NCBI RefSeq assembly: GCF_003258315.1
Contig: NZ_CP030032.1
Location: 2,457,804-2,521,803, forward strand
Length of the DNA stretch: 64,000 nt
Origin: Bradymonas sediminis
GTDB lineage: Bacteria > Myxococcota_A > Bradymonadia > Bradymonadales > Bradymonadaceae
Reading direction: 5' to 3'
Below are positions 14,519 to 16,259 of this stretch, piece by piece. How positions within the stretch are numbered: position 1 is the first letter of the stretch; each line of letters opens with the position of its first letter. The notes beneath the pieces were generated by a model. The model did no database searches, was not told where the DNA came from, and saw nothing but the letters and a program-made list of their open reading frames with translations. The translations under genes were made by a program, and so were the position numbers.

Positions 14519-14977
14519 TTAGAGACCGAATTCGGCGACCTTCTGGCGCAGCTCCTCGGTGTCCTCGAGCGCCGCGTTGACCGCACGGTCCCAGCTTGGC
14601 TTCGACCACATTTGGACCTTCTCCAATTGGCCGACCCACACGACGTCTCGCTCCAAACTGGCGAATTCGCGCATGGATTTCGGGACCAGCAGACGACCGT
14701 GGCTGTCGAGCGTGCACTCCACAGCGCCGGCGACGAAGACACGCAACACCCGTTGAACATAGGGGTCAAACTGGGGCAGCGAGCGCACCTTCTCTTCGAA
14801 ATTAAGCCACTTATCGAGCGGATATAGCTCGAGGCTCTTCTCGAAGTTACGCGTCAGGATGACACGGCCCGCGTTTCTTCCCTCGACGTCCATTTCGGTC
14901 AGCACCTCTCGGTACCGGGCGGGTAGACTGACGCGACCTTTGGCGTCCATCGTATGTTCATACTGACCACGAAACAT
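14519..14977 (-). CDS. mraZ: Transcriptional regulator MraZ
   Basis: MraZ is a DNA-binding regulator of its own dcw operon and forms rings of SpoVT-AbrB-like domains. The 152-residue protein has both tandem domains with their DxxxR signatures: MDAKGRVSLPARYRE near residues 10-24 and LDSHGRLLVPKSMREF near residues 90-105. It is the first gene of the dcw cluster, with a good promoter 140 bases upstream that carries MraZ-type TGGGN boxes. No strong Shine-Dalgarno is visible; GGCGG just before the ATG is the best candidate. Confidence 0.97.
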   Translation of the reverse strand: MFRGQYEHTMDAKGRVSLPARYREVLTEMDVEGRNAGRVILTRNFEKSLELYPLDKWLNFEEKVRSLPQFDPYVQRVLRVFVAGAVECTLDSHGRLLVPKSMREFASLERDVVWVGQLEKVQMWSKPSWDRAVNAALEDTEELRQKVAEFGL

Positions 14978-15011
14978 GACGCCGCCACGTCCAGGAAAAA
15001 CGCAGATCGAA

Positions 15012-15065
15012 GATGCTTCCTTGCATCAACAATCATCCTGACGAATGAAGCCATCCTTGGCTTCA
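15012..15065 (-). promoter_or_regulatory. Two ANGGAN-loop hairpins in the mraZ leader
   Basis: Within the roughly 140-base mraZ leader, 15046-15065 forms TGAAGCC[AAGGAT]GGCTTCA (7 bp) and 15012-15027 forms GATGC[AAGGAA]GCATC (5 bp) on the mRNA strand. The nearer hairpin ends 35 bases before the ATG, so these do not cover the ribosome site directly. They belong to the same family as the hairpins before rsmH, ftsW, ftsQ and ftsA. Confidence 0.6.
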
Positions 15066-15108
15066 GCACGCCGGGACCTCTCGACCCATTTGGCGCTATG
15101 GGAATTTG

Positions 15109-15151
15109 TCCCACTGCGGCCCACTATAGGGGCACCGATACCCACCGTCAA
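15109..15151 (-). promoter_or_regulatory. Sigma70-type promoter of the dcw cluster with overlapping MraZ-type boxes
   Basis: On the minus strand TTGACG (15151-15146) and TATAGT (15128-15123) are separated by exactly 17 bases, predicting a start near 15116. Boxes TGGGC (15123-15119) and TGGGA (15113-15109) are 10 bp apart and overlap the -10 and start site; a TGGGT (15144-15140) lies in the spacer. Repeats of TGGGN with 5-base gaps are the described MraZ operator in Escherichia coli, so autoregulation is likely. Confidence 0.7.
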
Positions 15152-15326
15152 CAACTTCACACCCATTCTGGGCCCAGCGCCGCCGAATCGAGCGGGAATT
15201 TGATCCACCGATCCAACACCCCTCCGAGCATCCCCTTAAATTTCAACAACTTAGAAAACCACCACCCTAAAAATCGCGCCGAAAATTAATTTCTAAACCA
15301 TTTTCTAGGGCGGTACACACCTGCCC

Positions 15327-15538
15327 TGGGAGTGTATTGGGGGGCAGTGGAGCGCAGTGGGATGGCGGTGGGGATGAAGTGGGATCAGGGTGGGATCGCG
15401 GTGGGATCATCCCCCAACACACGACCAAACGCAGGTGGGGATAAAGTGGGTTCGGTGGGAATTCGCCCCAAAATGCCGGCCGAAACGGGGCCTGGGACGA
15501 AGTGGGAAAGAAGCGGGGATGAAGTGGGATCGGCGGGA
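15327..15538 (+). repeat. Helically phased array of about 15 TGGGA-type boxes upstream of mraZ
   Basis: TGGG(A/G) or near-variants start at 15327, 15338, 15348, 15358, 15369, 15380, 15391, 15402; 15436, 15447, 15456; and 15493, 15503, 15514, 15525, 15534 on the plus strand. Steps are mostly 10-11 bp, one DNA turn, in three clusters of 8, 3 and 5. Typical context is GTGGGAT. It lies 175 bp or more upstream of the mraZ -35 and is oriented opposite to mraZ. The boxes match the MraZ half-site; binding is inferred. Confidence 0.7.
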
Positions 15539-15556
15539 GCATCTCCCAGCGTCCAT

Positions 15557-15610
15557 AAAAAAACGCAGGCGCCACACCCTAATAAAAATCGGGGATGACG
15601 CCTGCGTTTT
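15557..15610 (-). terminator. Intrinsic terminator after the small gene at 15641-15853
   Basis: Arms AAAACGCAGGCG (15560-15571) and CGCCTGCGTTTT (15599-15610) form a 12-bp stem around a 27-base loop. On the minus strand the stem is followed by seven T residues. It separates the upstream small gene from the TGGGA array and the mraZ promoter. Confidence 0.7.
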
Positions 15611-15640
15611 CAGCTCTTTAATGCGCGCTATGCGTCGCGA

Positions 15641-15853
15641 TTAAAGTGCGGATTCTTCCAGCTCGAACTTCACGTATTTCGGCATCACGCGAACTTTTTT
15701 GCCGGGCATATACTCAAGCTCGACGGTCTGGTTGATCGGCACCATTTCTTTGGAAACGAAGCACATGATCTTCTGTCCGCCGGTGTCGCGCTCTTCTTGC
15801 TCGGCTGCTTGTTGCTCGGTTGCCTCTTCGGCGTTCTTCACTTCTTCGGCCAT
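15641..15853 (-). CDS. Small acidic protein of unknown function
   Basis: A 70-residue product with an acidic Glu/Ala/Gln-rich N-terminal third and a C-terminal part containing GQKIMCFVSKEMVPINQT and GKKVRVMPKYVKFE, which looks like a compact beta fold. No signal peptide or membrane segment is seen. The ATG at 15853 is chosen for a strong AAGGAG seven bases upstream; an earlier in-frame start at 15898 would read through a hairpin (15877-15896). I do not recognise the family. The gene has its own terminator and is not part of the mraZ transcript. A single Cys argues against a zinc ribbon. Confidence 0.75.
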   Translation of the reverse strand: MAEEVKNAEEATEQQAAEQEERDTGGQKIMCFVSKEMVPINQTVELEYMPGKKVRVMPKYVKFELEESAL

Positions 15854-16259
15854 GTTGCTTCTCCTTAAGAGGATTGGAGCCGAGTGATTTCGGCTCAATC
15901 AATTGGATAATAAATTCAGTTCAGGTCTATGCTTTTCGCGATTATCAGAAATCGTCTTCCAGGCCCGCAGCCCCTGCTTTGCGCGGCAGGCCCTTGAATA
16001 AGCGTTGCTCCATTAGCAATCCCAGGGGCGCACGTCAACATTGCGGTCGCCCTGCCCGGCTCAAGCCTGGCCCAGGCGCGGCCGTCGAAACCCGGGGCGC
16101 CCGGGTTTGACCTGATCTATGAATCAAAATAGAGTCTCAGCCGTCGGCACCACGATCAATCAGGCACGCCTACACGCTACGCTCAACCGCATATACCGCT
16201 CAAATTGGGCGTGCGAATATCGACTTCACACAGCGCCCCAAACCCACCGCGTATGACCT
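15854..16259. other. Non-coding divergent intergenic region
   Basis: 406 bases between the divergent small gene (minus) and the TPR lipoprotein (plus). It contains a GAGCCG/CGGCTC hairpin at 15877-15896 in the leader of the small gene, and the palindrome and promoter described at 16084-16135. I see no coding sequence. Confidence 0.6.
16084..16135 (+). promoter_or_regulatory. Promoter-like pair overlapped by a perfect palindrome
   Basis: AAACCCGGG and CCCGGGTTT (16088-16108) form a perfect 9-bp inverted repeat with a GCG centre, extendable by GTC/GAC with one bulged base. TTGACC (16107-16112) overlaps its right arm and TAGAGT follows after 17 bases (16130-16135). This would place an operator on the -35 of a promoter reading into the lipoprotein gene at 16260. 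Confidence 0.4.

Follow-up and report, generated by a model that had tools for sequence, protein, structure and literature searches.

Upstream of mraZ in Bradymonas sediminis, a three-block array of 16 TGGG-type elements lies on the strand opposite to the gene, and these elements are well supported, by comparison of sequences, as MraZ boxes. The array was found in a window of 64,000 nucleotides (the whole stretch of DNA analysed; positions given below are those of the window). Most relatives have similar clusters in a comparable location, and this suggests control of the cell-division operon by MraZ from two sites and not from one. We consider the chances about even that the array acts as a distal auxiliary MraZ operator, which would help MraZ to repress its own dcw operon, perhaps through bridging or a DNA loop. 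MraZ autoregulation at the promoter was already known; the second, reversed, multi-box site is new here, and our literature search turned up no description of an MraZ array that is distal or reversed.

Layout of the array and of the promoter operator

The coordinates of the features are listed in Table 1. The + strand of positions 15327-15537 contains 13 exact TGGG boxes (the last exact one ends at 15528), and 16 boxes in three blocks (8 + 3 + 5) once the TGGA and CGGG variants are counted. The three blocks and the 10-11 bp recurrence given in a preliminary description of this DNA were reproduced, as was its statement that the boxes and mraZ are on opposite strands. The spacing from neighbour to neighbour is 9-11 bp (mostly 10-11 bp within the blocks; mean of block A, 10.7 bp, about one helical turn), and the box sequence is AGTGGGAT. 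Every block is closed by an inverted CCCA located 11 bp past its final direct box (at 15413, 15467, and 15545; TGGG-N7-CCCA), which the preliminary description did not mention. The 13 TGGG fall in a 212-bp stretch, and their count is far lower elsewhere in the 64 kb. The spacers between the boxes differ from each other, with the boxes and the 11-bp spacing kept, and weak 11- and 22-bp repeats were detected in the array with TRF.

The + strand of the array is G-rich and contains one canonical G4 pattern, and G-quadruplex control was proposed for the mraZ promoter of Staphylococcus aureus (PMC11796246), which resembles the array in having G-rich tracts upstream of mraZ. Such control is extremely improbable for the array, because the canonical pattern (four G3+ runs with loops of 1-7) was found in 3/26 distal regions (the window included), while the boxes and their spacing were kept. 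Neither inverted boxes nor a fixed spacing of 10-11 bp belongs to the features of a G4, and the array differs from the S. aureus promoter in that the relatives keep the box spacing and not the G4 pattern.

The gene mraZ is followed by rsmH/mraW and then by further cell-wall genes; the PDB entries 9qlg, 9qlr, 9r4j, 9sx6, and 9sz7 are among the newer MraZ structures. A scan of positions 14900-15950 for sigma-70-like promoters gave TTGACG-17-TATAGT as the sole match, the predicted -35 of which is 176 bp from the array, in agreement with the distance of about 175 bp given previously; the classic boxes noted earlier at the mraZ promoter were also found, on the - strand (Table 1). The boxes of known mraZ promoters point with the transcript and those of the array point along the + strand, so that the array might be the operator of a divergent promoter that drives transcription along the + strand, for example of a small RNA. 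This is very unlikely: no promoter was found on the + strand (14900-15950; the scan covers the sigma-70-like type only), inspection of the relatives revealed no shared -35/-10 preceding the reversed boxes, and no Rfam family was found in the region.

In the alignment of the 17 family members, TTGAC, the TAT of the -10 element, and TGGGA-N6-CCCA were conserved. The promoter operator has TGGG-N7-CCCA (exactly 11 bp) in 17/17 members of the family (f1, L018-L034) and in 8/8 members of f5 (L037-L044), and TGGG to CCCA at other short distances is rare in both; this invariant arrangement offers a second, directly testable feature of DNA reading by MraZ. The same arrangement was counted 7 times distally in the family (0.46 expected) and 4 times in f5 (0.09 expected). 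Many f1 members have more GTGG boxes after the inverted box, in the same 10-bp register; thus, the promoter operator may have five positions, of which the middle one is inverted.

Table 1. Features of the mraZ upstream region in the window
Feature	Position	Strand	Description
mraZ	14519-14977	-	First dcw operon gene; product of 152 aa; two MraZ/AbrB-type repeats; Pfam PF02381 (E=3.4e-30); related to PDB MraZ chains
Promoter operator	15085-15144	-	Boxes 15141-15144, 15120-15123 (overlaps the -10 element), 15110-15113 (at the predicted start), and a further box 15085-15088; inverted box 15099-15102 (+ strand), 11 bp past the last direct box
Predicted mraZ promoter	15123-15151	-	TTGACG-N17-TATAGT; sigma-70-like scan; expected start site ~15116
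Distal array, block A	15327-15416	+	8 boxes: 15327, 15338, 15348 (TGGA), 15358, 15369, 15380, 15391, 15402; terminal inverted CCCA, 15413-15416
Distal array, block B	15436-15470	+	3 boxes: 15436, 15447, 15456; terminal inverted CCCA, 15467-15470
Distal array, block C	15486-15548	+	Boxes 15493, 15503, 15514 (CGGG), 15525, 15534 (CGGG); an extra CGGG at 15486 possibly belongs here; terminal inverted CCCA, 15545-15548
Likely intrinsic terminator of the upstream gene	15560-15610	-	Arms AAAACGCAGGCG / CGCCTGCGTTTT, loop of ~27 nt, T-run; read from the sequence; bounds the array, outside it
Small conserved upstream gene	15641-15853	-	ORF co-directional with mraZ; no Pfam match

Assignment of the array elements to MraZ

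In E. coli MG1655, AGTGGGAAATTGTGGGGCAAAGTGGGA is located just upstream of mraZ and contains three GTGGG at 10 bp. A weight matrix was built from the promoter operators of the relatives, with the window left out; array boxes made up 5/8 of the + strand matches in the 64 kb at a threshold of at least 10 bits, and 9 of the 21 at a threshold of at least 8 bits. Because the matrix of the relatives scored the array and its blocks end with an inverted box, the array consists of the element of the promoter operator in reversed orientation.

Pattern searches were performed over the 5.05-Mb genome (a single contig of 5,045,683 bases). All three matches to TGGGRN6TGGGRN6TGGGR were in the array (control with the reversed pattern, 0), as were all three matches to GTGGG repeated three times at 10-11 bp (control, 1). 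The two-box pattern RGTGGGN{4,5}RGTGGG gave 14 matches in the whole genome, of which 6 were in the array region, against 13 for the control; thus, there was no box enrichment outside the mraZ locus. In the window, GTGG[GA] boxes spaced 9-12 bp apart form their longest chains in the array (6 and 3 boxes); next come the 2 boxes of the mraZ promoter and a single further pair. A search of Rfam gave a single match, bglG-cis-reg, which was below the threshold (26 bits; cut-off, 80) and was taken as chance.

The reading of the array elements as MraZ boxes, already made in the preliminary description, is well supported by the match to the E. coli box, the motif of the relatives, the pattern shared with the promoter operator, the restriction to the locus, and the clusters in the relatives. 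As in known MraZ operators, the array has TGGGN/GTGGG at about 10 bp and is upstream of mraZ in a genome encoding MraZ. Known operators are also located in the core promoter and on the strand of mraZ, which holds for the promoter boxes and not for the array; the latter is reversed and lies upstream, about 176 bp from the -35 element, and was therefore classed as a variant MraZ operator.

Distal clusters in the relatives

MraZ was present in 43/57 of the class genomes searched; it was not matched in the listed members of the families f7 (G043, G049, and G050) and f11 (G060-G069) of the phylum, in which mraZ loss is possible. Upstream regions were compared for 42 class members (the relatives of B. 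sediminis include Lujinxingia vulgaris and one Lujinxingiaceae MAG), 40 other Myxococcota, 32 further genomes (mostly Actinomycetota), and 30 more Actinomycetota. A distal cluster was defined as at least two GTGG[GA] on one strand, 9-12 bp apart, between -220 and -700, and the expectation was obtained from dinucleotide shuffles. Distal clusters were found in 33/42 class genomes (about 1.5 expected) versus 17/102 outside the class (about 2.5 expected). Within the class, they occurred in 8/8 genomes of f5 (0.16 expected), 10/15 of f3/f4 (0.57; some f4 clusters have GTGGA only and are weaker calls), 1/2 of f6/f2 (0.07), and 14/17 of the family (0.74). The absence from close relatives, named beforehand as one of the results that would speak against the MraZ reading of the array, did not occur. 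Outside the class, the numbers were 7/40 for the other Myxococcota (0.98 expected), 4/32 for the further genomes (0.70), and 6/30 for the additional Actinomycetota (0.86). The spread of distal clusters across the class goes beyond the preliminary description. Isolated genomes of Polyangia-like Myxococcota and of Actinomycetota (L077, L150, L152, L155, L185, and L202) also have reversed distal GTGGG clusters; thus, the two-site layout may extend beyond the class.

The number of boxes in the relatives ranges from 2 to about 20. In the nearest relative (G010/L019), the MraZ of which is 88% identical, about 20 GTGG[GA] boxes lie from -648 to -366. Part of them belong to a 23-bp unit that contains two boxes and is present in 4.5 identical copies (L127, 1016-1119), and this perfect repeat points to recent growth of the array. 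L038 has ten boxes, in pairs 10 bp apart within a 26-bp unit. Thus, arrays grow by tandem duplication, with the box, its spacing, and its place kept. Such growth, together with the weak repeats detected by TRF in the window, would also be expected if the array were a functionless product of neutral tandem expansion of a short G-rich unit. We consider that explanation very doubtful, since the spacers of the window diverge while the boxes and the 11-bp spacing persist, and since, without selection, one would not expect a biased strand and a steady distance in clusters that are present in most of the genera of the class. L029 has, from -443 to -576 and upstream of the box cluster, about 8 copies of another tandem repeat with a 19-bp unit (TGGGACTTCATCCCCCCGA-like), and L027 and L028 have units related to it.

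Orientation, distance, and helical phasing

The distal clusters are reversed relative to mraZ in 30/33 class genomes (binomial p = 1.4e-6, relatedness ignored) and in 12/17 genomes outside the class (p = 0.14). An upstream gene could be recognised in 11 family members; in these, the distance from the end of the array to the -35 element is 171 +/- 22 bp, the apparent steadiness of which is inflated by the kinship of these genomes, and the distance from the upstream stop codon to the start of the array is 200 +/- 155 bp. As the distance to the promoter is steady and that to the neighbour is variable, the array follows the promoter, which counts against a role tied to the upstream gene. The clusters of f5 are farther, at 289-329 bp from the promoter box, and clusters overall are 130-330 bp from the promoter operator. 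The action at a distance on the mraZ promoter put forward in the preliminary description is favoured by the steady distance and the strand bias. Helical phasing between the array and the promoter operator gave no signal in 16 genomes (Rayleigh p, 0.31 for 10.5 bp and 0.07 for 11 bp).

The small upstream gene has a homologue in 13/17 family loci (the remainder are without the gene or without enough upstream sequence). Its protein of about 70 aa, MAEE...QKIMCFVSK..VP....VELEY..GKKVRVMPKYVK, is conserved beside mraZ across the family. The co-direction of this gene with mraZ in the family and the position of the array between its terminator and mraZ would suit an insulator or roadblock, in which MraZ bound to the array stops read-through into the dcw operon. 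Such a role is improbable, because the distance to the upstream stop codon is the variable one, a likely terminator is already there, and f5 keeps its arrays with other upstream genes.

The main rival explanation is titration, in which the boxes would soak up MraZ and the promoter operator would be filled only above a threshold, the geometry being irrelevant. The many boxes in the window and in the nearest relative, and the strong variation of their number between species, are in its favour. A decoy could, however, sit anywhere and in either direction, whereas the clusters keep their distance and mostly their reversed orientation and track the promoter and not the neighbour, and we regard titration as rather unlikely.

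Proposed function of the array

According to work on E. coli, Burkholderia, and mycoplasmas, MraZ forms ring-like oligomers that bind such repeats at the dcw promoter, and it represses dcw in E. coli (PMC7761207, PMC8475190). If the array is an auxiliary operator, oligomeric MraZ on the promoter operator, covering the -10 element and the start site, would repress its own operon, and the array 170-400 bp upstream would raise the local concentration of MraZ. MraZ oligomers could then bridge the array and the promoter operator into a loop or a compact nucleoprotein complex, and the bridging would make the autorepression tighter or more switch-like. In a loop, two sites that point apart would come to lie alongside each other in the same orientation, which is a matter of geometry and not evidence. 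As in looping by an auxiliary operator, the sequence has a second predicted MraZ site, and its distance from the first is conserved.

An auxiliary operator is supported by the box shared with E. coli, the motif of the relatives, the excess of distal TGGG-N7-CCCA in the family and in f5, the reversed clusters across the class, the steady distance to the -35 element, and the confinement to the locus. Weighing against it are the lack of a phasing signal, the wide range of box number, and the distal fragment of Burkholderia (-386 to -136, a region not known to hold a box array), which was unbound by MraZ, only the promoter-proximal fragment being bound (PMC7761207); thus, a distal site is not general to mraZ promoters. 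For the Bradymonadia, and sporadically for other Myxococcota and Actinomycetota, we tentatively propose, at somewhat less than even chances, a two-site autoregulation of dcw, in which forward promoter boxes would be combined with a reversed array about 130-350 bp upstream where MraZ oligomers assemble and bridge the DNA. If this is true, MraZ would act as an architectural protein. The recurrent reversed distal arrays provide natural material for studying the placement of ring-forming MraZ on DNA and its possible bridging or wrapping of DNA, and they also raise the question of why the number of boxes differs so much among species.

Comparison with known systems

LacI and GalR have auxiliary operators that loop DNA, in which a second site for the same repressor is located away from the promoter operator. 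The array resembles them as a predicted second site of one repressor, set apart from the promoter operator; LacI and GalR have one or two single sites, whereas the array has 16 boxes in three blocks, reversed and without detectable phasing. The E. coli mraZ operator consists of GTGGG in 10-bp repeats near the promoter (Eraso et al. 2014, as described in PMC7761207 and PMC8475190). It shares with the array the same box at 10 bp (checked in MG1655) and differs from the arrangement in B. sediminis in having three boxes, at the promoter only, on the mraZ strand, and without an inverted box; no distal cluster was found in the 600-bp intergenic region upstream of mraZ in MG1655. PmraBc of Burkholderia cenocepacia has four repeats with a 10-bp period that overlap the start site and are bound by MraZ in a gel shift (PMC7761207), which is similar to the promoter operator of B. 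sediminis in its 10-bp-period repeats over the start site and different in being without a distal site. In Mollicutes, the MraZ site was given as AAAGTG[T/G] in a series of direct repeats, the sole such site in the M. genitalium chromosome (Fisunov 2016, as cited in PMC8475190); this series resembles the array in consisting of direct repeats at mraZ, and differs from it in the box sequence and in its confinement to the promoter region.
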